Part shown: positions 1-57,682 of the stretch, piece after piece | How the letters are laid out: each line of letters opens with the position of its first letter | How positions within the stretch are numbered: position 1 is the first letter of the stretch | Assembly (NCBI RefSeq): GCF_000003815.2 | Contig: NC_049995.1 | Span: 6,092,475 to 6,156,474 of the forward strand | DNA length: 64,000 nucleotides | Direction of reading: 5' to 3' | Source of the DNA: Branchiostoma floridae | Taxonomy: Eukaryota > Chordata > Leptocardii > Amphioxiformes > Branchiostomatidae | The notes under the pieces: generated by a model | What the model was told of the DNA's origin: nothing | The model's input: only the letters and a program-made list of their open reading frames with translations | Database searches by the model: none | Program-made: the position numbers and the translations under genes

Positions 1-79
1 CAGAGGGTTCTGGTTGATGACCTGGACCTTGTACAGGACATCTACGTGTCCATGTCATCGCCTCCTAACGTCACCAACG
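1..79 (+). CDS. Exon: probable last blade of an LDLR class B (YWTD) propeller
   Basis: The window opens inside an exon. Read in the frame that agrees with the next exon it gives RVLVDDLDLVQDIYVSM and ends in phase 1 at a GTAAAT donor. In LRP-family proteins a short segment of this kind (a hydrophobic-acidic strand, then a variable linker) closes the six-bladed propeller just before the LRP-type EGF module, which is exactly what follows. No YWTD motif lies inside the window, so the assignment rests on this context. Confidence 0.5.
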
Positions 80-3000
80 GTAAATATACCTTTATTTTTT
101 ATATTTTTTTTATATTTGCACAATCTTTAAAAAAGATAACATAAAACAAATTGAAGGATGAAAGTACATGGAGAGAGGAAGAAAAAGCCTCATGGCTTAT
201 GCATTGTCTTCCTCCAAAGTAACCAAAAGAACTATATCAATTAAAAAAATGGAAGGAAATCATAATAGTTCAATAATTAATAACTAAGGCAATATCATAA
301 CGGCGAAATGAATGAAATGATGTAATAAGAATATAACATTGTAAGAAATGTAACAACTAAAATGTTGAAATAGAAGAACAATGAATAGGAGATTAGTTAA
401 TTGTTTGATTGTCTAATAATGACTTTTTAACAGGTTTTTGAAGATGGGTAGTGAATGACAAAGATGTAAGGATTGACTTAAACTATTCCAAACTTGCGGA
501 CATCTGAATAGCATGGAAACTTTCTTCTAGTTACTAAGTAGTTTGTCTTCTATAGCATTCCCGTGTTGCTAACAGAGCATGATTCTGCTAAAGAGCATCA
601 GTTGTAGATGGATTGTTATAGATTAATAGGATTAATAGATCCATGGCTGTAGATCTGGTGTATATAATTAGAAACAGGCCTATAACGAGGACATTAGGCC
701 CCTCGATAACTTTCCATATTGATATATATATATCAAGTATTAAACATTGCTGACATGTGGTCACTGGTTGTTGTTTCAGATTTTTGGCACAGCAGTGCCT
801 TTGCTCTTGAAACAGAGCACCACAGGAATGCCTAAATTTAGATTGCAGTACTTTACTATATACATATGATAATTCGGACTGCTTACATAGATATAGTATC
901 ATTACTGCATTTAAGTTTATGGAATTATGAATGTATCAATAAAAAAGTACCTATGGACTTAATTGGTATGAAAGACAAAATTTCCAAAAACATTTATTCA
1001 ATTATATCAATTTGTGGGCAGGAACACAGAAGTGCCTATTACAACTTGATACGTAACATTTAACAAAAAAATTGCAAAATATTTCACATACAAAGTTTTA
1101 ATATTCAAAGCCATACCTGGTCAAAATCGGATCATCCACATCCTTAAATTTCGTATGAAAGTGATTTTAAGGTTATCCCACTCCAAAATGTAGCTTTTGG
1201 AATTTGAAAAGTAGATATAATGGAGCATTACGAAACACTTCCCCTAAAAAATGAACACCCAAGTAATTCACATATCTATTAGTATCCAATGAGATACACC
1301 TGATACAAACGTGTCCAATATCAGTTCCACTGTATAGATTTCGTTGCAAACGTCGTATATTGAAGACTAACTAATTGTGTGTTTATGTCAGCGTGTTCCT
1401 TGTCGAATGGTGGATGTCAGGAGCTGTGCCTTGCGCATCCAGAAGGAAGGGCATGCGCCTGTCGAGATACTTGGGAACTGCAGGAAGATGGAGTGTCGTG
1501 TGAGTAGCAGCTGCCAATCATTAGTTACCCGTTGGTTAACCACCAGTATAAAAAGGCTATGCGCTTTCCTCACGCTATTACCTACGTAAGCAATAAACGC
1601 CTTGCGCATGTCGTCTGGATTTTGTTTTTTATTGACTCAAATCTTATCAATGTGCATTAACTTCTACCAACGGCACCCCTGTGTGTGTGTGTTAAGGTTT
1701 GTTAACATAGTTTACATGCCATTAAAACGGGGAATTCCCATAATACCTAAATATTTCACACAAAAAGTTACTAATAAAGGTTTCTTATCAAAGTGTTATA
1801 AGACTTCTGTTGTCAAATGCCGACGCAAAAACGTCATCTGTAGTCTACCTATCCGCCATCTTGGATTATAAACCTTAAATGTCTTAAGATAATTTTTCAA
1901 CATTAAAACCCCATGAAAATTGATTAAAAGCGTTCACATGAATGTTTTCTGTAAGAAAATACCAAGTAGTGATGAACCAATTACGTCATCTCATTAGCAT
2001 AATTTATGAATATCTAATTATAATTGTTCAACTAAGACGTGTTAGATATTACAGATATATGAAAAGAAGTAAAGCTTAGGAAGAAAATATGAAAATTCAA
2101 TTGTTTAAGCCAAAGCTAGTGATTTTTGTAAAATTTGCCTTTCAGTAAACCGTTGCAATGGCAACACGAAAAATCATAAACTTACTCTATTTTTTTGTAA
2201 TATGTTGACACTAATATTCTAGGAAAAGTCACCAAGTATGGTTGTTCTAGCACAAGCCGTTTGGGAGTTAGACGACATCAAAGTTGGCGCAGGCACTTTA
2301 CCCCCCCCCCCCCCCAGTCTGGATAGGGTTAAATGATTGATGATCGATCACCCCCTGCAAATTTGGTAATGGTACAAGAAGCCGTTTCGTAATTACGAAT
2401 GAGGAGGGGGTCGAATGAGTACCCCCAGTCCAGGAAATGCCAGAAAAGGCCAGTTTGGATAGGGTTGAAATTTAGTGGATATATAATTAGCCGTATTTCC
2501 GTTTCATGTGGTATTTCTTTTCTACAGGTTGCCTGTCTGGCTACACTCTCTACGGTGATGCATGTTACAAAGCGAATTACCAAGACAAAACCTACAACCA
2601 GGCCAGGCAAGTGTGTGCAGCGGACCGTGGGATTCTGGCCATGCCGAAAGACAGAGACGTGGATAGCTTCTTGAGAAGTTTGAAGAACGCTGTGAGTGGA
2701 ATCTCACGTTTCTGGTTCGGTCTAAGTGATCAGAAGGATGAGGGCGAGTGGGAGTGGGAAGACGGGACTCCACACGACATACTTGCTGACTGGAACAACT
2801 GGCAGCTGGGGGAACCTAACGATAACAATGGAGGAGAAGACTGTGCAAACTACTATGGTTTAGGATGGAATGACGCACCGTGCTCGTCTAAATACAAGTT
2901 TATCTGTCAGCTGAAAGAAGGTATGTTTAAGAACATTTCATATACTTGTAGAATTGCTACGAAGTTGATGTTTGTCTTAAAATGTGCTCTGGTCGAGGAT

Positions 3001-6000
3001 TTAGTTTAACCCTATTCAGACGGGGGGGGGGGCTTTTGAGGTCCGCGCCAAATTTGATGCCGTATAACGCCAGAACGGCTTGCGCTAGAGCCACCAAATT
3101 TTGTGAGTTTTCCTAAAATATCGTTGGCAACAAATTTACGAAGTTCGAAAAATTTTCCGTTTTTTCGTGTTGCCATGGCAACCGTTTGTTGACAGGCAGT
3201 TTGGCCAAAATCACTATTTTTGGTTCTAACAATGTATTTTTCACATTTATTTCCTATATTTCTGCTATTTTGTTACATAAATAAAATCTTGTATTATTTA
3301 ACATATCTTTCATAATTATATATTTATAAATTATGCTAATTTGATGACGTCATCAGTACAAAATCCAAGATGGCGGACCGTATGGCCAGATCAAGAATAT
3401 GAAAGCTAATTATCCCTTACAATTTGTAACTACCTGGTATTTTTTCATAAAAAACTATCTAAATAAATGTATTTAGTCTATTTCCATTGCCTTTTGTGAT
3501 TATTTGTTGCAAAAAAAGTATTTTTTCAAAATTCAAGGTGGTGGATATAACATGGCGAAGCCCAACCGGTATATTAGATGTGCATGACGTCATTTTATGA
3601 CGTCATTTTGACGTCTATGATGTTGCTATTGGCAACACAGGTCGTAACAAACATTATCCATCTATCATCTGCACTTGCTGTTACATTTTTGGAGCAGAAC
3701 ATGAAGTTTTCTGAGAATACCCGTTTTTCATGGGTCCGGCCAATAAAATCAAATTGATGACGTCATAATCATATATGTGCATCATTGTCTACGCAACCTG
3801 ATTAAGAAAGATATGCAGTGCTAAATATCATCCCTTGTTTGGTCATCCTCCATAGAAGATTTTTACAACCCTTAATTTCAAGAGTTAGCCTCTAGGGGAG
3901 TCAAACCTATTCTACTTCTTCTTTACATTAAAATCGATCTACCACCAAAAATATAGTATGCCTGAGGACAAAAAGTTACAAGTTCTAACGCAGTACGTAC
4001 CAAAGGCCCAAAATCGACTGACTGCTGCACGTTATCTTTGAGCAAGAGACAGAGAAACTTATGACTAGTGATGCATGTATCCTCAAAGAACTGCACGTTC
4101 TTTACTTTTAGAATCATACATGAATAGATATTAACCTAAAAACTAACCAAAAATTATGCCTCCTGATTAGCCTACATTTGTGGGGTGCATGAGTTTCCTG
4201 GGGGCTTCGGCCCCCTGGTGACCCCAACGAGGCGATGTCCCTAGCCCTGGACCCCACTGGGGTACTCTCCAAGCAGAGGTTAGGCTCCGGCTGTTTTGTT
4301 TTACGTTTTTTTAGTCGTTTTTATCGGGTTCAAAACCTAACACAGCCCGATAAAAACAACTAAAACACGTTAAAAAAACATCCGGAGCCTAACCTCTGCT
4401 TGGAGAGTACACTGGGGGCATTCGGCGCCCCCGAACCCTCGCTCCTGAGCTGTGAAAAATAAAATCATGCCGAGAAGACTGATACATGTGTATATCAATG
4501 ATATTTAAGCAGAGGAAATTCAAAAGACCCTTCCTCATTGAGTTGACCAACCGGGCCATCACTTATGCTAAATGTCGCGCGCCTATTGGCAGCTGAATGT
4601 GGTGCCGTATTGATCCAATTAGCGACCACGCACACTTGGGCCAACACAAGTCTGGCACGTACAACGTCCGCTCAGTCATGTACCATATACGGTGAAACGT
4701 TGGAATCCGGCCGGTCGTTGAAAATAGCCGTTGAACCCCGCAAAATCATTTTGAAGTGAGTTTTGGTTAAAAATGATAACGTAATTTTTTTGTAAATATC
4801 TCGTGCACTATACCATGTCAATGGACTAAACAGGGCACGGGAGACAAAAACATACATGTTTAGTCAGAAAATGGCCATAAAAGAAATAGGTATCTATCAA
4901 AAATGAAAAATAAAAGAATTTTGGGGGTATACGTATTGGTCCACCCTACCTGTGTGCCAAATTTCATGTCATTCGGTCCAGAAACGGCGGTGATGAATTC
5001 TCTTAAATATTGTGACAGGAGAAAGAAGAAGAAGAAAGAAGAGCGAACATTACGAATACAATATTTTCACTCCGCACCATACCTACGGTATGGCGGGGGG
5101 AGACGGACGGAGGAATAAAATATCTACGACTGTAGAGACGTCACTTGACATGCGTCCGTCGGTGGCGGACATCTTAGCTTAGTAAAATCTTCAAGCGTGT
5201 TTAGTTTATACGGTAGCTAAGTCTCTGCATAACTTATGTTTCGAATTTCCATATCCTAACATGCTGTATTTGATAACATGGGGAAAACGTAAATATGATA
5301 TCTAAAACTGAGCCATTAAATCGAGCCTTAACAAAAATCCTCAATAACTAAATTTGTGAACTGCTTACCTGTACAGCAATCGCCTGCAATCTTGGATACT
5401 TCCGCTGTGGACACGGACGCGCATGTATCCTATCATGGAAGCGTTGTGATGGGGCCACGGACTGTACGGACGGGAGTGATGAGAAGGGTTGTGGTAAGTA
5501 ACCGTCATGAGAGCATTTAGTTATGCTTGAAGTTTAAGTAAAAACCAGAAAGGAAGTGAAGGTGTACCGTAACTCATTCCATCAAGATGCATTGTAACAC
5601 ATTGTTCACTTCCTGACTTATATTCTAGGAGGTTGAACGACCCACACAAACCAACTCAACATCTTCAAACTGTTGTTTGATAAAATGCAACTTCTCCGTG
5701 GTATGTAATATGATGTGTTGTAGCACGTTATATGACACCGATTGTCCAATCGAATGTGTTATTGTTATATATTAAAATGTATTGCGGAATCCAGTCGTCT
5801 GGCTGCTATGTCTGTAGCATTTTTTGCATCTCTGGCATAATGTATTATCTTTACACTTCTCAGTTTGCCTGCCAATACCTGGGAAATTTCAACTCGAAAG
5901 TAGACTAGCAATGCTACCGAATCAGCTAGGCCAGAGGACGTTTGATGAGGTACAGAATTCGTCTTTCGTGGAGCTGCTCAATAGTTCGTACGGCAACCCA

Positions 6001-9000
6001 GGAAAATACCACCCAGAGATCGGAAAATTCATCTCAACGGTTATTTTCCCGCAATGCAATGTCTCCGTAGAGAACGGTACTCTCTGCACTCCGTCTTCAG
6101 ATGCAACCGACATGGCCTCGTGCATGTAAGTGGATATTAATATTATAAGTGGCATTTCATTCACTATTTTGCAAGATTGCACAAAAGCCTTTGATAATGC
6201 TTTAGATGATTGTTACATCGCAACGTGTATGGTAATTTGAATTGAGATATGCGCATTCAGTGAGATACGAAACATGTACAACTCACGTCCTGTTGATGAA
6301 TCAGGTTGTAAAGGTAATACTTTCATGGGCCGGTACTAAATCTACTAAATATGCCCCCCAGGGTTAACGTTACGGGTACACAACTGGTACCGTGCCGCAC
6401 GTGGTGTGAGGAGGTTCTCAACATGGCTGATGACTGGATAAAGGACCAGCTGCCTCGATGTGACTTGTTTCCGTCATCCAAACATGGTTGTTGGAATCCA
6501 GATTCAGCCAAGAAAGGAAACGAAGGTGAAAGAGAGACATTTGTTTGAAAAAGTACTAGAAGTAGTATTGAAAGATGTTTATTCTTCAATTTCCATTTTA
6601 TGCCTTTCCGAAATAGTCGCGTAGTGGTTTGTCATTTTCTAACATTTGTGACACCATTTGGTAGTTGTATATGTGAGATCGATTTCTACACGCCAAAGAA
6701 ACGCATTACGTGTGATGTACACTTAGTAACTTTCTGGTACTTGTTGGCTTGTACTCCGCAGTTTGCTACCATGGCAACGGCATAAACTACCGTGGTACAT
6801 GGAGCAACACCGTTTCTGGGGCTGATTGTGTTGCTTGGTCAGCTGCGGAAGCTGGTTACTACAGTACACAGTACCCCTGGGCTAACCTGGATAACAACTA
6901 CTGCCGCAACCCCATCGGTCATGATCGGCCATTTTGTTTGACTAGAGACGGTGGCCAAGAGGATTGTGACGTTATTCCGTGTGGTACATTTTCTCCTATG
7001 AAAATGATTACTGAAATAAGCACCATGAAAAGAAATATTTGAACACAATGGTCCATCCTGATCATGCCAAGAGCTAATAATCGTTGTAGTTATTTAGTCT
7101 TTCTTATGTGAAGCACTTATTTTCTTCTTGGACCATATAGCCACCCACTTGTGTGTTAGCTAGCTCATTAGGTTATAACATTCCTATGACTTTTTATATC
7201 TCATTACACCAGATGCCGAAGGCTGCTGGGACAGAGGTCCTCCAAACTACGGCAAGATACGTCCAAATAAGAGGTTTTATAATGTTGGTGAAAGAGTCAC
7301 GTACACGTGCAACGAAGGCTACACACTCAAGGCAGGTTACACCAGTGAAGTGAGGTGCATCGAAGGAGAATGGCAATATGACAAACCCAGCTGTTCAGGT
7401 GATTCTAGTGTTTAACGGATGAAACATTGACAGCTTTAAGAGTATATGTGGTTTGCTAAACATGCACAGAATGATAAATTTTGACTGTTTTCCATTGCAA
7501 ACAAACATACTGTACATAGACCAAAGATCCACTCGACCTGCAAACGAATGTTTGTTATTCATTCTTTTAGATGATTACAGGTGTTGGTTTGGAAAAAAAA
7601 AAGAATAGATGTTGAATTGTATACGATTTTTCTTCGCTTGCATTCATTATCAAACATTGTGGCTACATTGACTTACCTCACCGGTGCCATAGCCTCACCG
7701 GCCGTAGGGGCAGCTATGTAACCAGTTTCTGACTAGTTTTTGTATGTCAAAAGTATAAGCATACTTTCTCACTGTTTAAACCTTCCATCCTGTAGTGAAC
7801 CATGAACAACGGCTGCAAGATGAGCTACTGGAGATCTACAGTTCAAGTCTGGCACCTGAAAATGTCACCATCAACTTCACTGGATCTGTGCAACTCATCG
7901 TTGGCTTGGTAAGTATTATCATAAGTTGAAATTTCGTATACATTTTGGTTTGTAGTGAGATTTATGGAACATTGATATGCCATGTACCAATCTATTCATG
8001 TAAACTTTTATTTCTAGGATGAAAAGAAGGAGCAACTTGTCGCGTCTGTCGTCATTGATTTTGTAAGTTTTTACCCTTTCTAAAGATTTCCCCCTTCTGT
8101 AAATAGGATATTGTAGTAAGGTCTCAGTAATGAAAAATCTATTTTACATGACCACCTCCATTAAGAAGAAAGTGGACCCAAATCACAGAAAAAACTGCCT
8201 GCAACGAAATCTCAGGATTCTACCTGAAACGTCTGACCGTTTTGAAAATCATATCTAGTTGCTTGAGTAATTTATATTTGGCGTATATTTTTACATTCAT
8301 CGACGTAACATGTATACTGTACATGCTCTTGAAAAAATCCTGGCCTTTCCAGTTCATAATGCCACGTGTCAACCCTTCCATAGTAGTTAGGTCATTTTGA
8401 ACATAAGAAGTTTGTATGGTTCTTCATTGGCCATCTGTACGTTAAAATATTCTTATTTTGAAGCACTGGCCAGAACAGCAGATTGAGTTGGGATCCAAAA
8501 TACTATGACGACATCCTGGCGTCCAGCTTTCCGGGCAACAGAATTTGGACGCCATCTCTCACTCTTCAGAGAAAGTATGTTGTTGCTTTCTTTAAAACGT
8601 TATATATTTGACTTCCCAATTAATGATATTAACAAATACTTATAAACGAAATGAAATTTCTCGGTCCATACTATACATAGTAATATATCACGATGGTCAA
8701 ATTTGGCCCCAAAATTTCCAGACTTCTTTTTAGGGTTTTAGAACACGAATCATGTTCGATCTGGCGTGATCGCACACGAATCGAACAGAACGGGCGTTCT
8801 ATTAGGGGTCACCAGCGATCACCTGCAAGTTGTTATAGTAAACACGCAGAAAACGCTCAGTGTTATTTTCCTGGATGCCGTCTGTCAGCAGAAAATCAAA
8901 CATTTTCACAAATATATGAACCGTTATCTGGGTAGCATAGTTTCGCTGCCGATTTGTTTGAAACATGTGACATTTAACGAAGCTGCTGGCGTCATTATTG

Positions 9001-12000
9001 TTGACCTTGAATATAACAACACTTGTTTGTGGCGGAATCAATTACCGCATCTCCCTATCCGTGCGACTCGACATGCGGTCAAACATGGTAGACTCCCTTG
9101 CAGTCTTCGAACGGGGCTGTTTTTATGGGGGGGGGGGTGCCATTGGCTCGGGGACGGGGGAAAACTCCCTTTCACTGCAAACTCCCATCCTCGGCAAACT
9201 CCCTTTTCCGGCACAAGAGAACGTAGCCAACGTTAAAAATGGTATTTAAATCGCTTACAAAACGCATGCAAATTAACTCTTTCAGGACTTAAATTATCGA
9301 CAACTAATTTCTCCAGAATTGTGTATTAGGGAGTTTTGGAATATTCAGGCAATTTTGAATTACGGGTCTTTGAGTGTGAAAAAAAAAGATTGTTTTGACC
9401 TTATCTTGGCTGTAGAAATAGTTTGAAGAAGAACTTTCCTTTATTCAGATATCCTTTAGCCCTATTTAGGGCTAGTCTATTAGGGTTCGAATGAAACAAT
9501 GAACTATACAAATACAACGCAAACATACATGTATATATACATATATACATAACAGATCGAAAGAAACATACGCAATCATAAAAACTATTGACTTCGGAAA
9601 ACATTGTACATTGACTTTTTAAAGCATGAAATGTTGTGCAGGGATTTAATGTATGGTGGTAACACATTTCATAGACTGATGGCACGGTAGAGAAAAGTTC
9701 GTTTTTTGAGTTTGTTTTTGGCTTAGGGAGATTAAAACTAAAGGAATTGGATAATCTGGATGAATATGTGTGTGTAGAATAGACAGGAACGATGAAACTG
9801 TAAATGTTATGGGGCTTCTTACTGACAAGTACTCTAAAAACATAGTCAAAGTACTGATGGCGAATCTTTCTCTTACCATAGGCCAAACTTTAAAAATCCC
9901 TACGACAGAAAGTTTGATTTTACAGTCATTTTACATACGATATTAAAGAATTAGATTTTAGGTCAAATTTAGAACCAATTTAAATAGGGTATCTGCTTTT
10001 TGGGCCACTGAAGACCCTTTATGAATCAACCAACTAGGCATATTTCAGAAAACATTCGACAAGATTGTGCAGCACACTTACACGGCTAGATTTGAGGTAT
10101 ACATACTACTGAAACCACGCGGGAGCCCCGGTAACCCGATCACTGAACTCAGTATCACTGAACAAAGTAGTTCTGTGATATATGCCATACATGTATCATG
10201 AACGGAGATGAACATAATGAAACATCAGTTATGTGCATCAGGATTTTGTTTGCATAATTTGTAGGGAAAACATACTAGAAAATACATCATGTTTCAGATA
10301 ATATGACTTAAATACATGTGGCATATATAATTTAGAAAGATTAATCATCTACAAATATCAATCATGCTAATCAGAGCTAAATTTGTATTATACATAAAAA
10401 GGGACATAATTTATTTAGTGATAAATGTTCGATATAATGACATAATTCTTTTTCTGATAAATGTTCGATATACATACTTGTGACATAAGCTATATTTACT
10501 TAGACATTTAAATCAATATGCATAGATTATATATTTGTAGAATCATTTGCAGAATTTATGCTTAAATGTAAACATGGTTTCCTGCTAAATGACTTTAATA
10601 CACATGTAATTACAACGAAAAAGACCATTATTATGTTAATTTGAGCCTTACTTGTATCACCAATGAGATAAGATAAAACCAAAATCTAGAAGGCTTAAAA
10701 TATACCATGGTGGTATGAGGTATCGTGATGTTATTTATGTTGTTTTCTCAGTGCTGATCCTGGCCACCAAGGCCTACCGAAGGAGATCCCGATCCATGTG
10801 AGCAGTGCTGGACGGGCAGAATGGACGGTGGAAACCGTGACCACCACCGTGTGCGATGCAGAGCCCTTCTTTTTTCCTGCAGACAACGTGAAATGCGAAA
10901 TCTGTTTTTCTGCAACCAACGCATTCAAGCAGAGAATTCGTAAGGCTTTTAGAATATTTCTAAACTTATATCTATGTCAGTGTAGGTTAATAAGTTGTAT
11001 AGATTGGATATTATGTCATTTTATGTTTTGAAAGGAATGAATGTATCACGATATCTTTAACATTTTGGCAAAGGATTATAATCATTCAAAAGAAAGAGAC
11101 CAGATTTTTTCTACAAAGGGATACTGTCTAAACGAAAGAATAAGTTATAGTAAGTAAGCAAATTTATGTTTGAATATCTTATTTAGATTTCTTTGATAAC
11201 AATTAGTATTGATTTCTTTAAACCTTTGTAAATTTGTGAAAAATAGAATGCCAAGGGGCAGCAGGCAAGGCAGGCGGTCCATGCGACTCTTTTTCTACTA
11301 CCACAACGGAGGGAGAATGGTACCGAAAGGACAAGGCATTCGTAAAAGACAACAGGGTGGCGTGTCTTGCCGTTCATCTGGAGAGGATCCCCCTGTTCCA
11401 TCTCGCCACTACTGTTGGGCCCTGCATCATCCTGATTGTACTGATGATCATCACATTCATCATGCCCTTGGACAGGGGAGACCGGGTCTCGTTCGGAGTG
11501 ACCATTCTACTCTCTATGGTCGTGTCTCTTGTATTTGTGACAGACGTTCTTCCTGTCAAGGGTGCTTTGCCATTTTTCGGTGAGTCAAAAATGAATATGA
11601 CCTAACAGTTTTTCCAGTAACTATTTGTGACAGATTTTGATAAACAACAGCTGATCAGACATAACTTCTTTTGCCATTCTGGTAACTGTTTTACATGGTT
11701 AATGTTACAGCTACGCTGATCATCGTTTGCATGGGCCTGATGGGCTTGTTCCTCTTTTTCACTGTGGCTATCATCGTTATTCACGACAGGAAGGGCAGCC
11801 TGTCTCCGTCGGCGAAGAAAGTTTTTCTTCATCATCTTTCAAAGTATCCCTTAATTTTCATTCCAACATTTTGAATTTCTGTTATGCCATAGGCATACTA
11901 TAACGCAAAATTGTTTATACCATGTTAATTTATTTTCTAAAATGATATTTTTAACCAGCATTCAAGTTCTAGTTTCTGTGTTTTGTTGGCACGTTGTTTT

Positions 12001-12730
12001 CGTTGAATACTAGACTATATGTTGCTCAGTAAATAACATCTCAAAGAACATTATCTGAATAATACATTCTGCTTTTACCAAAAAGAACCCCTGCTTCGCC
12101 TATTGAGTCAGTTAGTCGAACTTGCTGAAGCTCGATGTTTCTGACTTAGGGAGAAGACAGTGAGCGTAGTTCAGTACACAGAAGTGGTCAATGGCCTTGC
12201 ACTGAGAAACTCGTTATATTAAAAAACAAATTATGACTATGCATGTATATTAACTATTGACGTCATTTTGTTCATGCTTGTTGATAAGGGCACTGCTGAT
12301 GGGAGATCTAACAAAGGAGAAGCCTATAAGAGATGAAGAAGCTGACATGCAGGACCCCACTGCAATTGAGATGACCAACTACGCGTTTCAAACCGATGAC
12401 ATGGCTGCGGTCAACGGCGATGGATCCGATGATGAAATGACTGGGCAGCCGGAAACACCTTCTGGAGGTCAGCAGACATCCGGTTCCTCCGGCCTTCCTG
12501 AGCTGATCTTCAGTGTGAAGGAGATGACCAAGGAGACAATGAAAATAGAGATGGACAAGCTGACTAGGGCGTTAACCAACCGGAGAGAGCAGCTCAGAAA
12601 GCTCACGGAGAAGGAGGAGGAGGTGTCGGACTACATCTTACTGGCTAAGGTTCTGGATAGGCTTTGTGTTGTCATGTACATCCTCAGCATCGCGGCAGCC
12701 GTTCCCATGACTATGTACTTAAGCAAGTAA
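1..12730 (+). CDS. Mosaic Cys-loop ligand-gated ion channel with LRP/ROR-like extracellular modules (3' part of gene)
   Basis: Exons at 1-79, 1392-1499, 2528-2920, 5377-5493, 5864-6125, 6362-6525, 6762-6983, 7213-7398, 7796-7908, 8018-8062, 8474-8574, 10752-10939, 11247-11579, 11711-11843 and 12289-12730 join through GT/AG introns into 2,886 nt of continuous open frame ending in TAA at 12728. Domain order over the visible ~961 residues: YWTD-propeller end (1-26), EGF (27-62), C-type lectin (63-193), LDLa (194-232), Frizzled CRD (233-374), kringle (375-448), sushi (449-510), channel ligand-binding domain (511-710), M1 (711-733), M2 (740-760), M3 (772-795), intracellular loop, M4 (about 930-958). 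Every intron between whole modules is phase 1, the signature of exon shuffling. The protein should sit in the plasma membrane as one subunit of a pentamer with the module array outside. The N-terminus lies upstream of the window. The alternative, two genes meeting at the sushi/channel junction, is not favoured: no start, stop or poly(A) signal is evident between 7398 and 7796 and the phases match. Confidence 0.8.
1392..1499 (+). CDS. Exon: EGF-like domain of LRP type
   Basis: A phase 1-1 exon of 108 nt (36 codons) between a TTTATGTCAG acceptor and a GTGAGT donor. It reads CSLSNGGCQELCLAHPEG, then RACACRDTWELQEDGVSC, with the last Cys completed by the next exon. Six cysteines with NGGC..LCL and CACRDTWEL match the EGF module that caps YWTD propellers in LDLR and LRP proteins. 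An overlapping open frame in another reading is spurious. Confidence 0.85.
1850..2328. mobile_element. Right end of a TTAA-flanked (piggyBac-type) repeat
   Basis: It ends with GTCTGGATAGGG followed by TTAA at 2329-2332, the mirror of the left ends CCCTATTC/CTAGACC seen elsewhere in the window. It shares internal segments with 18.6-18.85 kb (GCAATGGCAACACGAAAAAT, GGAAAAGTCACCAAG, GTTGGCGCAGGCA). The left end is not identified, so the start is approximate. Confidence 0.55.
2528..2920 (+). CDS. Exon: C-type lectin domain
   Basis: A complete C-type lectin domain of about 131 residues in a single phase 1-1 exon, from CLSGYTLYGDACYK to CSSKYKFICQLKE. Six cysteines are in canonical positions. The Ca2+/sugar-binding signature is present as GEPNDNNGGEDC (EPN, the mannose-type motif) followed by GWNDAPC (the WND motif), so the domain is predicted to bind Ca2+ and mannose-type sugars. 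The flanking pattern is normal for vertebrate and amphioxus lectin domains. Ligand preference is inferred from EPN only. Confidence 0.95.
3010..3800. mobile_element. Left part of a TTAA-flanked (piggyBac-type) repeat
   Basis: TTAA at 3006-3009 is followed by CCCTATTCAGAC and a poly-G tract. The body resembles 60.24-60.85 kb: AGAACGGCTTGCGCTAGAGC, TTGCCATGGCAACCGTTTGT, CAAGATGGCGGA, AGATCAAGAAT. Several TGACGTCA-like palindromes are present. The right boundary is uncertain. Confidence 0.6.
4263..4411. mobile_element. Foldback MITE (near-perfect hairpin)
   Basis: The left arm GTACTCTCCAAGCAGAGGTT reappears inverted at the right end (AACCTCTGCTTGGAGAGTAC). The arms are about 70 nt with a loop of a few bases. 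Flanking DNA has further G/C-rich inverted pieces (GGGGGCTTCGGCCCCC). It lies in the intron between the lectin and LDLa exons. Confidence 0.7.
4880..5110 (-). repeat. Dispersed repeat with CCATACC/GGTATGG palindrome
   Basis: The reverse complement of the segment recurs at 29885-29990, 42555-42720 and 45712-45880 (CATACCATAGGTATGGTGAA, TCCTGTCAAAT, CTGAAATTTGGCAC). An A/G-rich stretch (AAGAAGAAGAAAGAAG) lies inside. The class is not known. Confidence 0.5.
5377..5493 (+). CDS. Exon: LDL-receptor class A repeat
   Basis: A 39-codon phase 1-1 exon with six cysteines and the Ca2+-cage motif DCTDGSDEKGC at its end. It starts CNLGYFRCGHGRAC. The spacing is that of a normal LDLa module. It sits between the lectin and Frizzled modules. 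The Asp and Glu residues that bind Ca2+ are all kept, so the fold is probably intact. Confidence 0.95.
5864..6125 (+). CDS. Exon: Frizzled-type cysteine-rich domain, first half
   Basis: This exon enters in phase 1 and leaves in phase 2. It reads VCLPIPGKFQLESRLAMLPN, then QLGQRTFDEVQ and a segment with FISTVIFPQC and NGTLCTP. The pattern LPN.LG..T..E......F..L and FPQC is that of Frizzled/ROR/MuSK CRDs. Two cysteines usually found (before and within the FLC segment) appear replaced. Several NxS/T sequons suggest N-glycosylation. It is continued by the exon at 6362. Confidence 0.85.
6362..6525 (+). CDS. Exon: Frizzled-type cysteine-rich domain, second half
   Basis: This exon completes the CRD: VPCRTWCEEVLNMADDWI, then LPRCDLF and GCWNP. 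PCR..C....... C......C is the diagnostic C-terminal half of Frizzled domains. It enters in phase 2 (completing ATG) and leaves in phase 1 at GTGAAA. A Frizzled CRD immediately followed by a kringle is also the order in ROR receptor kinases, so the pair may have been acquired together. Confidence 0.85.
6762..6983 (+). CDS. Exon: kringle domain
   Basis: A 74-codon phase 1-1 exon reading VCYHGNGINYRGTWSNTVSG ... NNYCRNPIGHDRPFC ... EDCDVIPC. It contains all six kringle cysteines, the YRGT and NYCRNP signatures and the usual length. The lysine-binding acidic pair of plasminogen kringles (DXD/E) is not seen, so lysine binding is not implied. Confidence 0.95.
7213..7398 (+). CDS. Exon: sushi (CCP) domain
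   Basis: A 62-codon phase 1-1 exon with four cysteines: GCWDRGPPNYGKI, GERVTYTCNEGYTL, SEVRC, EGEWQYDKPSC. This is a standard complement-control-protein module with the conserved Trp before the last Cys. It is the module next to the channel and would form the link between the adhesive array and the ligand-binding domain. Confidence 0.9.
7796..7908 (+). CDS. Exon: start of channel ligand-binding domain
   Basis: The exon enters in phase 1 and leaves in phase 0. It reads HEQRLQDELLEIYSSSLAP, then ENVTINFTGSVQLIVGL. An N-terminal helix (RL...L...Y), then P-x-N-V-x-(I/V)-x-F and a strand ending in a hydrophobic segment is how nicotinic-type subunits begin. It is joined directly to the sushi exon, so the channel has no signal peptide of its own and depends on the upstream modules. 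Confidence 0.85.
8018..8062 (+). CDS. Exon: 45-nt ligand-binding-domain exon
   Basis: A phase 0-0 exon of exactly 45 nt, DEKKEQLVASVVIDF, flanked by TTTCTAG and GTAAGT. Nicotinic receptor genes carry a characteristic 45-nt exon at this position encoding the DEKNQ-L-T segment. Both length and sequence (DEKKEQL) agree, which supports common descent of the gene structure with nicotinic subunits. Confidence 0.85.
8474..8574 (+). CDS. Exon: ligand-binding domain, RLSWDP and IWTP motifs
   Basis: The frame encodes NSRLSWDPKYYDDI and FPGNRIWTPSLTL, equivalent to the nicotinic RL-W-P..Y and IW-PDI motifs, leaving in phase 2 at GTATGT. The homologous nicotinic exon is 110 nt, which would start here at 8465 (TGQNSRL), but no AG sits there. 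The AG at 8462-8463 gives a frameshift, whereas AG at 8472-8473 keeps the frame and drops three residues. The latter start is used here. A one-base assembly or allele error is equally possible. The loop-A aromatic Trp of WTD is replaced by Gly in the upstream reading. Confidence 0.65.
8690..9990. repeat. Dispersed repeat, interrupted by a LINE fragment
   Basis: It is homologous to 59295-60020 (AAAATTTCCAGACTTCT, GATCGAACAGAACGGGCGTT, GACCTTATCTTGGCTGTA, AATCCCTA.GACAGAAAG). The copy here carries a G-tract at 9128 and is split by the insertion at 9435-9888. It fills most of the intron before the Cys-loop exon. Confidence 0.6.
9435..9888 (-). mobile_element. 5'-truncated LINE 3' fragment
   Basis: The minus strand has an open stretch (9401-9886) with a LINE-like C-terminal pattern (THTYSSRLSNSFSFNLPKPK followed by TNSKNELFSTV). 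The paralogous repeat at 59.86 kb joins the two flanks directly (AAGTAGAAGTTGAAAAATCC), acting as an empty site, so this is an insertion. It is not a host exon. Confidence 0.6.
10752..10939 (+). CDS. Exon: ligand-binding domain with Cys-loop
   Basis: It contains the Cys-loop with the canonical 13 residues between cysteines: C631 to C645, spanning CDAEPFFFPADNVKC, with the central F-P-x-D kept. It enters in phase 2 (completing Asn) and leaves in phase 1. The intron before it is 2.2 kb and filled with repeats. The Cys-loop is diagnostic for eukaryotic pentameric ligand-gated channels. Confidence 0.92.
11247..11579 (+). CDS. Exon: end of ligand-binding domain, M1 and pore-lining M2
   Basis: M1 is HLATTVGPCIILIVLMIITF, including the conserved Pro. 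M2 aligns position by position with nicotinic M2: GDR at -2' to 0', Ser2', Thr6', Leu9', Ser10', Asp20' and Pro23' (VSFGVTILLSMVVSLVFVTD). Acidic residues at -1' and 20', and no extra Pro-Ala at the inner mouth, predict cation selectivity. The vicinal Cys pair of agonist-binding nicotinic alpha subunits is missing from loop C; cysteines are present instead at QCQG and GGPC. Confidence 0.92.
11711..11843 (+). CDS. Exon: M3 segment
   Basis: The exon encodes the third membrane span (ATLIIVCMGLMGLFLFFTVA and following residues) and the start of the intracellular loop, HDRKGSLSPSAKKVFLHHL. It is phase 1 in and phase 2 out. The donor GTATCC is weak, but the next exon continues in frame. Confidence 0.85.
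12289..12730 (+). CDS. Exon: intracellular loop and M4, stop codon
   Basis: The first ~110 residues are an acidic, Gly/Ser-rich cytoplasmic loop (RDEEADMQD, GDGSDDEM), followed by a charged helix (MKIEMDKLTRALTNRREQL) like the membrane-associated helix of nicotinic subunits. M4 is AKVLDRLCVVMYILSIAA, with the family's VLDR start, and then only MTMYLSK to the stop. M4 ends very near the C-terminus, as expected for a Cys-loop subunit. Confidence 0.92.
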
Positions 12731-13796: not shown

Positions 13797-14066
13797 AATG
13801 AATTATTTTAACATTTTCACTCGCAGCATAACGAATTATTTTAGCATTTTCACTCGCAGCATAACGAATTATTTTAGCATTTTCACTCGCAGCATAACGA
13901 ATTATTTTAGCATTTTCACTCGCAGCATAACGGATTATTTTAGCATTTTCACTCGCAGCATAACGGATTATTTTAGCATTTTCACTCGCAGCATAACGGA
14001 TTATTTTAGCATTTTCACTCGCAGCATAACGGATTATTTTAGCATTTTCACTCGCAGCATAATGAC
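13797..14066 (+). repeat. 33-bp minisatellite, about 8 copies
   Basis: The unit is AATTATTTTAGCATTTTCAC followed by TCGCAGCATAACG. Eight near-identical copies lie head to tail, with a shared A-to-G change in the last ones. The period is a multiple of three, so it creates a false open frame (NYFSIFTRSIT repeated). Confidence 0.9.
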
Positions 14067-21600: not shown

Positions 21601-22364
21601 GCGTATTCAGTGACTAGAAGTGGTTAGGGTTAGAAAGGGCTTAGTGGTAGAAAATTTGTTTCCGAGGAATTGTATTTTTTGGCCATTTTTCGGTCTAAAA
21701 TGGATAAAAAAACATGCAAATTTTGACAATTTTCCTGAGAGTGCTTAGGTAAAGTGTTAGGGTTAGAACTAGGGCTAGGGTTAGGATTAGGGTTAGCGTT
21801 AGGGGTTCGTTGTAGAAAATTTGTTTCCGAGGAATTGTGTTTTTTGGCCATATTTTGGTCTGAAATGAATAGAAAACATGTAAATTTTGACCAGTTTTCT
21901 GAGAGTGCTTAGGGTAAGGGTTAGGGGTAGAACTTGGGTTAGGGTTAGGGCTAGGGTTAGGGTTAGGGTTAGGGGTTCGTGGTAGAAAATTTGTTTTCGA
22001 GGAATTGTGTTTTTGGCCATATTTTGGTCTGAAATGAATAGAAAACATGTAAATTTTGACCAGTTTTCTGAGAGTGCTTAGGGTAAGGGTTAGGGGTAGA
22101 ACTAGGGTTAGGGTTAAGGCTAGGGTTAGGGTTAGGGGTTCGTTGTAGAAAATTTGTTTCCGAGGAATTGTGTTTTTTGGCCATATTTCGGTCTGAAATG
22201 GATAGAAAACATACAAATGTTGAATATTTTTCTGAGAGTGCTTAGGGTTAGTGTGAGGGTTAGGGTTAAGGTTAGTGTTAGTGTTAGGGGTCCGTTGTAG
22301 AAAATTTGTTTCCGAGGAATTGTGTTTTTTGACTATATTTCGGTCTGGAATGGATAGAAAACAT

Positions 22365-22672
22365 TCGTTTATTCGTTTATTCAGAAAAGAATCAGCATCG
22401 CAGTTTGTAAGAACAAACTGAATATCACTGATTTTGTACAAATTTTCAACTAGTCGGCTACAAGATATATGTATAAACATCTATTAAACAAATTACAGTA
22501 CATGATGCAGAAACGCCTATACAAAGTTGTACAGTATACTTTACACAGAACACCGAAGTAAGGACAGGAACGTCCTACGCAGAGTATCAGGACTCGTAGT
22601 ACAGGCGTATAGCCTGGTGCAAAAACGACCTTCTCAGTCTCTGTGTCCGGGCAGCTGGCACAGTAAGTGCCA
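22365..22672 (-). mobile_element. Small insertion in the telomere-like array, probably a LINE tail
   Basis: A 0.3-kb non-array segment starts with TTCGTTTATTCGTTTATTC (a simple-repeat 3' tail seen in reverse) and is bordered on both sides by AAAACAT, a likely target-site duplication. After it the array resumes at the same place in the unit. Confidence 0.6.
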
Positions 22673-23455
22673 AAACATGGAAATTTTGACCATTTTTCTG
22701 AGAGTGCTTAGGGTAAGTGTAAGGGTCAGAGCTAGGGTTAGGGCTAGGGTTAGGGTTAGTGTTAGGGTTAGGGCTTCGTTGTAGAAAATTTGTTTCCGAG
22801 GAATTGTGTTTTTAGACCATATTTCGGTCTGAAATGGATTAAAAAAACATGCAAATTTTGATCATTTTTCTGAGATTGCTTAGGTAAAATGTTAGGGTCT
22901 GAACTAGGGTTAGGGTTTGGGCTAGGGTTAGGGTTAGGGTTAGGGGTTCGTGGTAGACATTTTGTTTTCTAGGAATTGTATTTTTTGGCCATATTTTGGT
23001 CTGAAATGGATAGAAAACATACACATTTTGAATACTTTTCTGAGAATGCTTAGGGTTAGGGTGAGGATTAGGGTTAGGGTTACGGTAATGGCTAGGGTTA
23101 AGGTAGGGGTTCGTTGTAGAAAATTTGTTTCGGGGAATTGTGTTTTTTGACCATATTTTGGTCTGAAATGAATAGAAAACATGCAAATTTTGACCAATTT
23201 TCTGAGATTGCTTAGGTAAAGTATTACAGTCATAACTAGGGTTAGGGTTAGGGCTAGGGTTAGGGTTAGGGTTAGGGTTAGGGTTAGGGTTAGGGTTAGG
23301 GTTAGGGTTAGGGTTTGGGGTTCGTGGTAGACATTTTTTTTTCGAGGAATTGTGTTTTTTGGCCATATTTTGGTCTGAAATGGATAGAAAACAGACACAT
23401 TTTGAACATTTTTCTGAGAGTGCTTAGGGTTGCAGTAAGATTCAGCCATATTGCA

Positions 23456-23555
23456 NNNNNNNNNNNNNNNNNNNNNNNNNNNNNNNNNNNNNNNNNNNNN
23501 NNNNNNNNNNNNNNNNNNNNNNNNNNNNNNNNNNNNNNNNNNNNNNNNNNNNNNN
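23456..23555. other. Assembly gap (100 N)
   Basis: Exactly 100 N inside the telomere-like array. The sequence just before (GATTCAGCCATATTGCA) is unlike the unit, so the array may be longer or disrupted here. Confidence 1.
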
Positions 23556-24950
23556 ATATCTGAACGTACTGTTTTTCTGAGAGTGCTTAGGGTAAGTGTT
23601 AGGGTCAGAACTTGGGTTAGGGCTAGGGCTAGGGTTAGAGTTAGGGTTAGGGGTTCATTGTAGAAAATTTGTTTCCGAGGAATTGTGTTTTTTGACCATA
23701 TTTTGGTCTGAAATGGATAAAAAAACATGCAAATTTTGACCATTTTTCTGAGATTGCTTAGGTAAAGTGTTACGGTCATAACTATGGTTAGGGTTAGGGC
23801 TAGGGTTAGGGTTAGGGTTAGGGGTTCGTGGTAGAAAATTTGTTTCCGAGGAATTGTGTTTTTTTGGCCATATTTTGGTCTGAAATTGATAGAAAACATA
23901 CAAATTTTGAATATTTTTCTGAGTGTGCTTAGGGTTAGGCTGAGGATTAGGGTTAGGGTTACGGTTATGGCTAGGGTTAGGGTTAGGGGTTCGTGGTAGA
24001 AAATTTGTTTCCGAGGAATTGTGTTTTTTGCCATATTTTGGTCTGAAAAGAATAGAAAACATGTAAATTTTGACCATTTTTCTGAGAGTGCTTAGGGTAA
24101 GGGTTAGGGGTAGAACTAGGGTTAGGGTTAGGGCTACGGTTAGGGTTAGGGTTTGGAGTTCGTGGTAGAAAATTTGTTTTCGAGGAATTGTGTTTTTGGC
24201 CATATTATGGTCTGAAATGAATAGAAAACATGCAAAATTTGACCATTTTTCTGAGAGTGCTTAGGGTAAGGGTTAGGGGTAGAACTAGGGTTAGGGTTAA
24301 GGCTAGGGTTAGGGTTAGGGGTTCGTTGTAGAAAATTTGCTTCCGAGGAATTGTGTTTTTTGGCCATATTTCTGTTTGAAATGGATAGAAAACATACAAA
24401 TTTTGATTATTTTTCTGAGAGTGCTTAGGGTTAGGGTGAAGATTGGGGTTAGGGTTACGGTTATAGCTAGGGGTTTGTGGTAGACAGTTTGTTTCCGAGG
24501 AATTGTGTTTTTTGACCATATTTTGGTCTGAAATGGATAAAAAAACATGCAAATTTTGACCATTTTTCTGAGATTGCTTAGGTAAAGTGTTACGGTCATA
24601 ACTATGGTTAGGGTTAGGGCTAGGGTTAGGGTTAGGGTTAGGGGTTCGTGGTAGAAAATTTGTTTCCGAGGAATTGTGTTTTTTTGGCCATATTTTGGTC
24701 TGAAATTGATAGAAAACATACAAATTTTGAATATTTTTCTGAGTGTGCTTAGGGTTAGGCTGAGGATTAGGGTTAGGGTTACGGTTATGGCTAGGGTTAG
24801 GGTTAGGGGTTCGTGGTAGAAAATTTGTTTCCGAGGAATTGTGTTTTTTGGCCATATTTTGGTCTGAAATGAATAGAAAACATGCAAATTTTGACCATTT
24901 TTCTGAGACTGCTTTGGGGTAAGGTTATTATTAGGGTTAGGGCTAGGGTA

Positions 24951-27776: not shown

Positions 27777-27938
27777 TCAGTTGCTCTTCCTGATGCGGTT
27801 GATCCAGTCGCGGAAGGCACAGACACGCGCAAAGACTGCCGGGTAGCTGGTGCTGCAGGTTTCGGCACCGAAGCTGGTCACCCCCACCACTTGGTACGAC
27901 CCGTCTATCTCACAGACAAGAGGACCGCCAGAGTCACC
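27777..27938 (-). CDS. Exon: catalytic Ser exon and C-terminus
   Basis: GDSGGPLVCEIDG gives the catalytic Ser and oxyanion loop, followed by VTSFGAETCSTSYPAVFARV and WINRIRKSN-stop. The S-W-G triad at 214-216 is SFG. The length to the stop is normal for a trypsin-like enzyme. Confidence 0.85.
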   Translation of the reverse strand, partial: GDSGGPLVCEIDGSYQVVGVTSFGAETCSTSYPAVFARVCAFRDWINRIRKSN

Positions 27939-27967
27939 CTGCAATTTGTGGATAAGAAAAGTCATTA

Positions 27968-28438
27968 TGTATGGAGATAAGTGCTCATTCGCTACAAATA
28001 GAGAGGGGCAGGAACAAAAAACTGTTGACGAGAGAACATGAACATACTGTTCAGGGAAAGCAGTGGAAGATAAACTACATCGTATATGTCAATGTTCACA
28101 TTACAATTCCGAAAACAAACAAACTTTTCCTTAAAATCTCCAAATCTTTCCCAAGCTTTTCTCACCTTACCGACCAACAAAAAACAATCTTCTTGCTCAA
28201 GTCGTCCAACCCCTTTATATATGAAAATGTTTAACAATTCATCTCCCACTGCATACAGAAAAGAAGCCAATCCCATCAAAAAGCTTATGAGTAGAAATAG
28301 ATTTAGATTAGACGTTATTTCTCTTTTGATTTATCTATAGATTTCATTTTTCTTCTCTGTAAAGTATACAATTATGTATACCACTACATTGCCTGCAATT
28401 ACCCCTTGGGCATGAACTTGCAATAAAGATTATTATGA
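27968..28438 (+). mobile_element. LINE 3' end inserted in the protease intron
   Basis: C-terminal LINE-like reading FPSFSHLTDQQKTIFLLKSS is followed by the 3' tail TTGGGCATGAACTTGCAATAAAGATT. The paralogous segment near 16566-16580 lacks the whole block, so it marks the empty site. The same tail occurs at 35.26, 37.22 and 55.56 kb. Confidence 0.7.
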
Positions 28439-52244: not shown

Positions 52245-52455
52245 ACGTAACAGAGGGGTGATACACTCTAGACACAGAAATCCTTAACTCTGACCGTTTT
52301 ATACGATAACGATTTTCATGGTATACTGTTCATAAAGCCTGCTGTAATGTGAATCACATTTTTTTAAATTCAATGTTTCAGGAACATCTCGTTTAATTTT
52401 TTTTTAATTGATAAGAAATCACTGAACAGTGAGATAGTCACGCATCTGCATAATA
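52245..52455. repeat. Paralogous segment, copy 2
   Basis: Partner of 48710-48930. It is interrupted after GCATCTGCA by the LINE 3' end; the paralogous sequence resumes at 52937 (TCTGCAATAGAAGAAGG). Confidence 0.8.
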
Positions 52456-52936
52456 GATCATTTAGATACAACATTACAAAACTGAGAATAAGTGCACATT
52501 GCTTAGAAATTGAAAAAGGTCGTCACCGTAACACACCAGCCACTCAGAGACTGTGTCCTACATGTCATGAAAATATAGAAGATGAATTCCACTTTGTTAT
52601 GAAATGTCCCACCTACAGTAAAGAGAGAGAAACATTGTTTAAGAATATTAGAACCAAAACACACATCTCTCTCGCTGGTGCAGAAAGCGATATTTTCCAT
52701 GTATTGCTCTCATGTTCAACTCATATATCCGTTTACGTAGGCCAGTTTCTTTATAATGTATTCCAAATGCGGGATCAGATTAATGATTAATCATACATAA
52801 CTGTACTATTGTCGATAATGTTTTGTTGTTGTTTTGTATGTAGCCTCTTAGTACTACTGTCTGTATAGCTATTAGTTGTTATTAATTGCCATACATTGTA
52901 CCCTGTGCGATTGTTGAGCAATAAATTCATTCATTC
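52456..52936 (+). mobile_element. LINE 3' end with (ATTC)n tail
   Basis: Coding remnant LRISAHCLEIEKGRHRNTPA, then RLCPTCHENIEDEFHFVMKC with the CxxC...H...C motif, stop at about 52790, then a 3' UTR ending GAGCAATAAATTCATTCATT. A short duplication of TCTGCA borders it. Same family as 16850-17830. Confidence 0.8.
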
Positions 52937-57412: not shown

Positions 57413-57460
57413 TGACTCTGCAAAATAGGAAAATACAATAGTCTTCGTCAGAACTCAGGT

Positions 57461-57682
57461 ATGACAGACTCCTTTAACGTGTTACAGGGTTCAACGATGT
57501 GGCAATGGGGAAGAGACAAGGCGTCCAGTATGTGGCAATGGCGGCCGTGGAGCGCTGACAAACCTAAGCCGCAGCTTCCTGAAGTCAGTGGATCTGACTA
57601 CTCTAGTGTTGAGTATCCATTCGAGAATCTGGTACTAAAAGGTGGAGGGGCGAAAGGAATCGCATACATCGGAGCTTGTAAG
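57461..57682 (+). CDS. Exon 1: oxyanion loop GGGAKG
   Basis: It encodes up to GACK, ending in phase 0 at GTACAC. The Gly-rich loop GGGAKG is the patatin G-G-G-x-[K/R]-G oxyanion motif. Confidence 0.85.

Follow-up and report, generated by a model that had tools for sequence, protein, structure and literature searches.

A lancelet gene predicted to join extracellular modules to a nicotinic-type channel subunit, and the family to which it belongs

The stretch of DNA analysed here, referred to as the window, comprises 64,000 bases of the lancelet Branchiostoma floridae (contig C17, positions 6092475-6156474, in an assembly that totals 513,431,437 bases and 431 contigs). Its first 12,730 positions hold a gene whose 15 exons can be read in a single frame of 961 residues, closed by a stop codon at 12730, which leads from a series of extracellular modules into a Cys-loop channel subunit. 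The Cys-loop receptors of animals tend to be compact, and their architecture is generally fixed. A preliminary description of this DNA, made from its letters, had proposed such a run of modules into a complete channel, with a product of 961 residues, and this claim is borne out by the frame of the rebuilt gene model, by the presence of GT-AG borders at all 14 introns, and by the domain calls of Pfam. The single frame does require that exon 11 starts at 8474, which corrects the preliminary description. The gene is one of a large family of predicted lancelet proteins, in which the pore of a nicotinic receptor appears to have been kept while the principal-face residues of the acetylcholine site have been lost.

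The locus and its gene

The exons and the intron at the junction between the modules and the channel are the following, with positions counted from the first base of the window. The Frizzled (Fz) module is given as its cysteine-rich domain (CRD), LBD stands for ligand-binding domain, and M1 to M4 are the transmembrane helices.

1-79, plus strand: exon 1, last part of a YWTD propeller, the 5' part of which lies before the window
1392-1499, plus strand: exon 2, EGF-like (FXa_inhibition) module
2528-2920, plus strand: exon 3, C-type lectin with EPN and WND motifs
5377-5493, plus strand: exon 4, LDL-receptor class A (LDLa) module with the acidic motif CDGATDCTDGSDE
5864-6125, plus strand: exon 5, first part of a degenerate Frizzled CRD
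6362-6525, plus strand: exon 6, second part of the degenerate Frizzled CRD
6762-6983, plus strand: exon 7, kringle
7213-7398, plus strand: exon 8, sushi
7399-7795, plus strand: junction intron, phase 1, with neither a signal-peptide-like open reading frame nor a polyadenylation signal
7796-7908, plus strand: exon 9, first LBD exon, corresponding to the mature nicotinic N-terminus
8018-8062, plus strand: exon 10, LBD, 45 nucleotides
8474-8574, plus strand: exon 11, LBD, with a start shifted relative to the paralogs and the loop-D Trp missing
10752-10939, plus strand: exon 12, LBD with the Cys-loop
11247-11579, plus strand: exon 13, end of the LBD, M1, M2 and start of M3
11711-11843, plus strand: exon 14, M3 and start of the cytoplasmic loop
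12289-12730, plus strand: exon 15, cytoplasmic loop, M4 and stop codon

Pfam calls, every one of which scores above its curated cut-off, follow this order in the predicted protein: FXa_inhibition/EGF (residues 28-63), Lectin_C (82-190), LDLa (197-232), kringle (376-448) and sushi (459-509), and then the channel domains Neur_chan_LBD (514-665) and Neur_chan_memb (716-949). The hydropathy profile has four peaks, all of them within the channel part. The end of a YWTD propeller, which had been considered probable, is confirmed, since exon 1 starts before the window and propeller matches lie upstream of it, at window-relative positions -4375 to -4172, -2465 to -2271, -2103 to -1876 and -743 to -570; the 30 kb of upstream DNA that were searched yielded no signal-peptide exon. 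In the 3' flank of the gene, at 13800-14062, a 33-base unit is repeated eight times in nearly identical form.

Paralogous loci and the lancelet family

Gene predictions can share errors, a danger about which a survey of lancelet architectures warns (PMC4967905), and we therefore examined paralogous DNA of the same assembly, for which five regions of 15.5-20 kb each were fetched. Exons 2-15 are present in the same order and on the same strand at all five loci, and exon 1 was found in three. AG is present at 67 of the 70 acceptors (exons 2-15) and GT at 61 of the 65 donors (exons 2-14); six of the seven misses fall where the alignment stopped short, and one is a real GC donor (exon 9 of the locus C17c). 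The exon 9 donor of the C6 locus also reads GC, at a place where the alignment is short. All 15 exons were found in the nearest paralog, whose pore exon (C17:6038922-6039252; L042, L043) lies ~65 kb upstream of exon 13 of the window and is 94% identical to it. Two of the paralogous loci correspond to annotated B. floridae proteins: the C15 locus to P0003 (100% identity over 499 residues, six exons), and the locus at 2.16 Mb of C17 to P0015 (100% over 361 residues, six exons). P0015, encoded within C17:2152500-2168000 (L050-L051), is annotated as '5-hydroxytryptamine receptor 3A-like' and starts inside the CRD; because EGF, lectin and LDLa exons are present in order upstream of this start, the annotated model looks truncated. 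No retrieved protein exceeds ~80% identity to the window gene over six exons, and the same holds for the nearest paralog. Both genes may lack an annotation or have a different one, or their proteins may fall beyond the lengths that the search covered. Among eight further loci, taken with 5.5 kb of upstream DNA, the sushi exon was found in five, and exon 9 was reached in four, all of which have the sushi exon before it; three of the eight showed neither exon.

That all exons belong to one gene was an assumption of the preliminary description, and the alternative is that a mosaic receptor and a channel, encoded by adjacent genes, have been misread as a single gene. Artefacts of this type are known from annotated lancelet genes, and that very warning accompanies a similar architecture with Neur_chan_memb (PMC4967905). 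We nevertheless regard it as highly improbable here, because the exons form one collinear unit at five of the five paralogous loci, because the junction intron (397 bases) contains no AATAAA or ATTAAA and, by a crude hydropathy rule, no signal-peptide-like open reading frame, and because the frame, if continued beyond the sushi exon, is closed by a stop codon six residues later. The same crude rule thus revealed none of the signal-peptide exons that the preliminary description had named as the contrary case for this intron; where nicotinic subunits usually have a signal peptide directly before the LBD, a sushi exon is predicted in frame instead. At the protein level, the best alignment spans the sushi/channel junction (from window residue 400 or less to 700 or more) in 96 of 120 relatives. 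Eleven relatives were flagged as starting shortly before the LBD; ten of them have no hydrophobic start, and the one that does, P0085, is an 891-residue CUB protein that was flagged through a chance motif match. Collinearity, the identity of P0003, the alignments across the junction, and ratios of nonsynonymous to synonymous substitution rates (dN/dS) of 0.25-0.27 between the window gene and each of the five paralogs support a single gene. We are therefore highly confident in one gene unit with the predicted anatomy described above, and the evidence from genomic DNA favours a real architecture over an artefact.

The construction of the mosaic can be followed at its introns. All seven inter-module introns, the one between sushi and LBD included, are in phase 1, which points to exon shuffling; in lancelets, exon shuffling is reported to be biased to the 1-1 phase combination (PMC4284660). 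In the AlphaFold model of P0003 (mean predicted local distance difference test score, pLDDT, 68; predicted template-modelling score 0.44), residue 510 is the first to match residue 1 of a mature nicotinic receptor and the last sushi Cys is residue 508, so that the array is predicted to end where the mature nicotinic subunit begins. The model is mostly at 80-90 pLDDT over the CRD and on as far as the middle of the LBD, and is poor at the propeller end, the EGF module and much of the lectin. A fold comparison with this model listed only Cys-loop channels, since the channel domain fills the list, and is silent on the CRD.

Protein searches returned 123 relatives (120 listed) with a channel-part seed, 55 with a second seed and 25 with a channel-only profile, together 152 distinct listed proteins, all of which are named as Branchiostoma. 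Each search scored only the 8000 candidates that shared most words, and ordinary nicotinic subunits of other animals were not retrieved, so that these searches cannot establish that the family is confined to lancelets. At least one extracellular module was read from the Pfam columns in 143 of the 152. In 41 members picked for length and diversity, the kringle, the LBD and the transmembrane domain are present in all 41, sushi in 35, LDLa in 34, CUB in 17, the C-type lectin in 14, Fz in 13 and F5/8C in 11. Lancelet proteins with both sushi or kringle and channel domains, a search for which had been suggested in the preliminary description, were therefore found. Within the assembly, the pore exon has at least 40 matches, window included, which is a lower bound because 40 of 48 candidates were scored. 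The names of the relatives in the databases include uncharacterized, CHRNA9 and MFRP. The statement of the preliminary description that no known Cys-loop subunit has such an array thus needs qualification: the architecture itself is real, but the gene is not a single oddity, as it belongs to a large lancelet family of predicted proteins already in the databases. The N-terminal module slot (CUB, C-type lectin, F5/8C) seems to have changed repeatedly in this family, given that its six labels require at least 13 changes, against a minimum of 5, on a quick tree of the channel part only. This tree comprises 85 family rows and alpha4, takes its labels from Pfam columns, includes partial gene models, and has an unsafe root, the alpha4 outgroup being a very long branch beside another long row.

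Channel, modules and proposed function

The channel part of the window protein matches PF02931 with 68.4 bits and PF02932 with 82.4 bits, as a Cys-loop receptor does. It contains a 13-residue Cys-loop with the conserved Pro, found in 145 of 153 sequences in all (motif counts over these 153 use the first match per sequence), and four transmembrane helices with a nicotinic-like M2, which are also seen in the model of P0003. The M2 pattern, which itself demanded Gly at -2', matched in 138 of the 153 sequences, with Asp at -1' in all 138, Leu at 9' in 137 and an acidic residue at 20' in 86; the window protein has Asp at -1', Leu at 9' and Asp at 20', and no Pro at -2'. Pro at -2' is a feature of anion channels. 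By the same motif matching, the family has the loop A Tyr in 0 of 129 sequences, the loop B Trp in 0 of 145 and the vicinal Cys pair (CC) of loop C in 0 of 139; a CC in P0029 lies elsewhere within its LBD. As a control from the same genome, the eight best LBD matches are canonical nicotinic exons, of which all eight have the loop B Trp and five have the CC; the three without it (L006-L008) still carry the loop B Trp. As far as sequence can tell, the pore is of the cation type and conserved, and the principal-face acetylcholine residues are lost family-wide. LBD exon matches are clustered on contig C2 at ~26.30-26.51 Mb, where the four that were read (L002, L006, L007 and L008) are canonical nicotinic exons.

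Among the modules, the Frizzled CRD named in the preliminary description is not called by Pfam in the window copy. However, a profile of the window clade (window residues 229-375 and 19 relatives) aligns with the CRD of relatives, mostly carriers of PF01392, in a comparison whose E-value is for a library of one and whose flanks take in some LDLa. This alignment indicates that the window copy has a degenerate Fz CRD: the domain is real, as had been proposed, and is degraded to a degree that had not. In the window clade, the alignment, read by eye, lacks cysteines 2, 3, 4 and 8, keeps 1, 5, 6, 7, 9 and 10, and has two extra ones in an insertion. Under the canonical disulfide pattern of C1-C5, C2-C4, C3-C8, C6-C10 and C7-C9 (PMC6938638), exactly two of the five disulfides are gone as wholes. 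One expects losses in whole pairs of a real, evolving domain, which the CRD would then be.

The lectins of 19 of 32 lectin-bearing sequences, window included, have both EPN and WND (16 by script and three from its printed strings); two have EPD and WND, and 11 gave no match. The EPN motif is a mark of mannose-type binding. The solved sequences closest to the window lectin are the PLA2 receptor and multi-lectin proteins of the mannose-receptor type, followed by DC-SIGN-type lectins. Compared with single-kringle PDB chains, the kringle scores 64.7 bits with apolipoprotein(a), 59 with plasminogen and 45.3 with the ROR2 kringle, a ranking that leaves out the whole-chain scores of plasminogen and HGF, in which several kringles are summed; no MuSK chain is among the best 60 of 92 kringle matches in the PDB. 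A fusion of a synapse organiser of the LRP4-MuSK type with a nicotinic channel was considered and rejected, as the apolipoprotein(a) and plasminogen chains outscore ROR2, MuSK does not appear among those best 60 of 92 matches, and relatives outside the window clade carry CUB-LDLa-Fz. Identities between the window protein and P0003 are 0.93 for LDLa, 0.89 for sushi, 0.84 for the kringle, 0.83 for the lectin and 0.76 for the CRD, as compared with 0.76 for the propeller end and EGF, 0.75 for the LBD and 0.85 for M1-M3. Each of the five modules lectin, LDLa, CRD, kringle and sushi exceeds the LBD in identity whenever the window protein is compared with a relative (six of six comparisons), which the propeller-end/EGF part does not. 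The modules of the family look intact at the sequence level.

Against the five paralogs, dN/dS by part ranges from 0.12 to 0.54 for the parts of the array, the LBD and M1-M3, and from 0.26 to 0.49 for the last exon; the sole stop codon in these comparisons is in the group that holds the terminator. On the window branch since its split from the nearest paralog (741 shared codons), dN is 0.022-0.023 and dS 0.117-0.126, and the ratio of ~0.18-0.20 indicates that the copy has been under constraint. The window protein departs at 47 of 525 columns that are invariant in six relatives (9.0%), and the relatives themselves depart at 1.1-12.6%.

We consider it quite plausible, with some reserve, that the gene encodes a shuffled mosaic cation-channel subunit that is gated by cues other than acetylcholine, with the array as its recognition part. 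Extracellular modules would have been joined, through the phase-1 intron, ahead of the mature nicotinic N-terminus in place of the ordinary signal peptide. Subunits would assemble as pentamers, and the gate would respond, via the array atop the LBD or via a remodelled pocket, to non-acetylcholine cues, for which glycans, lipids, and matrix or surface-bound molecules are candidates. The opened channel would admit cations into the cell, and the outcome would be a chemosensory or innate-recognition receptor channel. More tentatively, the lancelets may possess a large repertoire in which the pore is kept, the acetylcholine site is retired, and exchangeable modules set what opens or places the channel, for the ionotropic recognition of glycans, lipids or microbes.

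Several observations weigh against the view of a channel gated by non-acetylcholine cues through its array. That orthosteric residues are lost is no proof of gating by the modules. The Trp of loop D, on the complementary face, is kept in 136 relatives under a strict motif (17 of 153 sequences, window included, were unmatched) and in 119 of 137 under a looser one, so that an acetylcholine site shared with a canonical partner is possible. In the comparison with the nearest paralog, no part has a lower dN/dS than the LBD (0.12; kringle and sushi 0.30), which therefore cannot be regarded as a relic under relaxed selection. The P0003 model is poor in its lectin part, and the predicted domain orientations are unsure. 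The main rival is an accessory subunit of the non-alpha type, which would join a canonical lancelet nicotinic alpha subunit in mixed receptors and contribute only the complementary face, the array serving to anchor or cluster the receptor at synapses or matrix. The retained loop-D Trp, the loop C without CC, and the canonical nicotinic exons of the same genome, five of eight with CC, all fit this possibility. We find it somewhat doubtful, since the canonical exons that lack CC retain the loop B Trp that the mosaic family has lost, and since the window copy as spliced has no loop-D Trp. It is still less probable that the subunit is a channel for small hydrophobic ligands, which would act via a remodelled pocket as in the chemotactile receptors of cephalopods, with the array as a spacer or tether only; the clear constraint on the LBD speaks in its favour, but that five modules should be more identical than the LBD in six of six comparisons is odd for an inert spacer.

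A last point against the reading as a gated mosaic channel concerns the window copy itself. The relatives read DF-TWQD-SRL at the exon 10/11 junction, and exon 11 opens with the codons for T-W-Q-D in all five paralogs, whereas its start in the window has one base more than in each of them. The frame is kept only via the AG at 8472-8473, at the cost of three residues that include the loop-D Trp. We cannot tell whether the extra base is a sequence error, a recent change or a shift of the acceptor. The 45-nucleotide exon 10, and the 110-nucleotide exon 11 of the paralogs, agree with the exons of nicotinic genes. The window copy could on this account be a pseudogene, or misassembled at exon 11, in a family that is otherwise functional, and that its best protein match reaches only ~80% over six exons, while two paralogs match proteins at 100%, would be in agreement with this. 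Yet all other exons are open, the ratio on the window branch is low, the departures at invariant columns lie within the range of the relatives, and the nearest paralog, which does not have the exon 11 flaw, is equally without a close protein match; we consider a defective copy unlikely.

If the gated mosaic channel proves correct, a chordate genome with at least 40 pore-exon matches and varied ectodomains would show that fast ion channels can be recruited as modular recognition receptors. It also makes testable the action of modules placed at the apex of the LBD on the pore.

The remainder of the window contains the following features.

21622-24924: satellite-like array of ~164-172-base units with telomere-like TTAGGG repeats, inside a chromosome-scale contig
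23456-23555 and 58056-58155: runs of 100 N each
27777-28088, minus strand: trypsin-like serine protease exon (PF00089, E 5e-12)
52368-52790: weak match to zf-RVT that does not reach the curated cut-off and may be left over from a retroelement
57416-57736: weak match to a patatin-like phospholipase, under the curated cut-off, which may be its first exon

Comparison with known systems

The predicted protein differs from nicotinic acetylcholine receptor subunits in that a signal peptide before the LBD was not found at this junction, a module array stands in front, and the principal-face residues are lost; the three marks of an acetylcholine-binding alpha subunit, which are the vicinal Cys of loop C, the loop A Tyr and the loop B Trp, are all absent from the matched segments of the lancelet family. 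The LRP architecture comprises YWTD-EGF and LDLa. The gene shares with it a YWTD propeller, EGF and LDLa, and differs in having a four-helix channel instead of a single-pass topology. With ROR and MuSK it shares an Fz module followed by a kringle, although its CRD is without two of the five canonical disulfides, and differs from them in that Pfam gives no kinase match in the window protein; an Fz adjoining a kringle is described in ROR, and in MuSK outside mammals (PMC3927609). The preliminary description had called the array LRP/ROR-like, which is apt for its YWTD, EGF, LDLa and Fz-kringle parts. However, relatives outside the window clade (e.g. P0079), with CUB-LDLa-Fz before the kringle, are more like MFRP, which has CUB, LDLa and Fz modules and for which the available text names no kringle (PMC12036977). 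Among channels, the pentameric ligand-gated ion channel (pLGIC) DeCLIC comes closest as a precedent for an extra N-terminal domain; it is alike in having an accessory one before its LBD, and differs in being bacterial (PMC9897478, PMC12664993).

In the literature, a Neur_chan_memb architecture (269420_PRF0) was described in 2016 as apparently unique to Branchiostoma, in one sentence of a section that warns of artefacts (PMC4967905). Beyond that sentence, the literature searches turned up no mention of the mosaic channel family. Expansions and Cys-less forms in amphioxus are described by a survey of nicotinic receptors (PMC6354393) and one of pLGICs (PMC4795631), neither of which mentions a module array in the portions available; the latter excludes terminal regions by design.

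For a nicotinic channel turned to another use, the chemotactile receptors of cephalopods are the closest precedent (PMC11526382, PMC10338036). Like the lancelet family, those of octopus and squid are derived from nicotinic receptors, do not bind acetylcholine and have expanded in a single lineage; they differ in that no extra extracellular modules are mentioned for them in the available part of the source (PMC11526382). The lancelet family may thus represent a second route, beside that of the cephalopods, from a transmitter receptor to a sensor of other cues.

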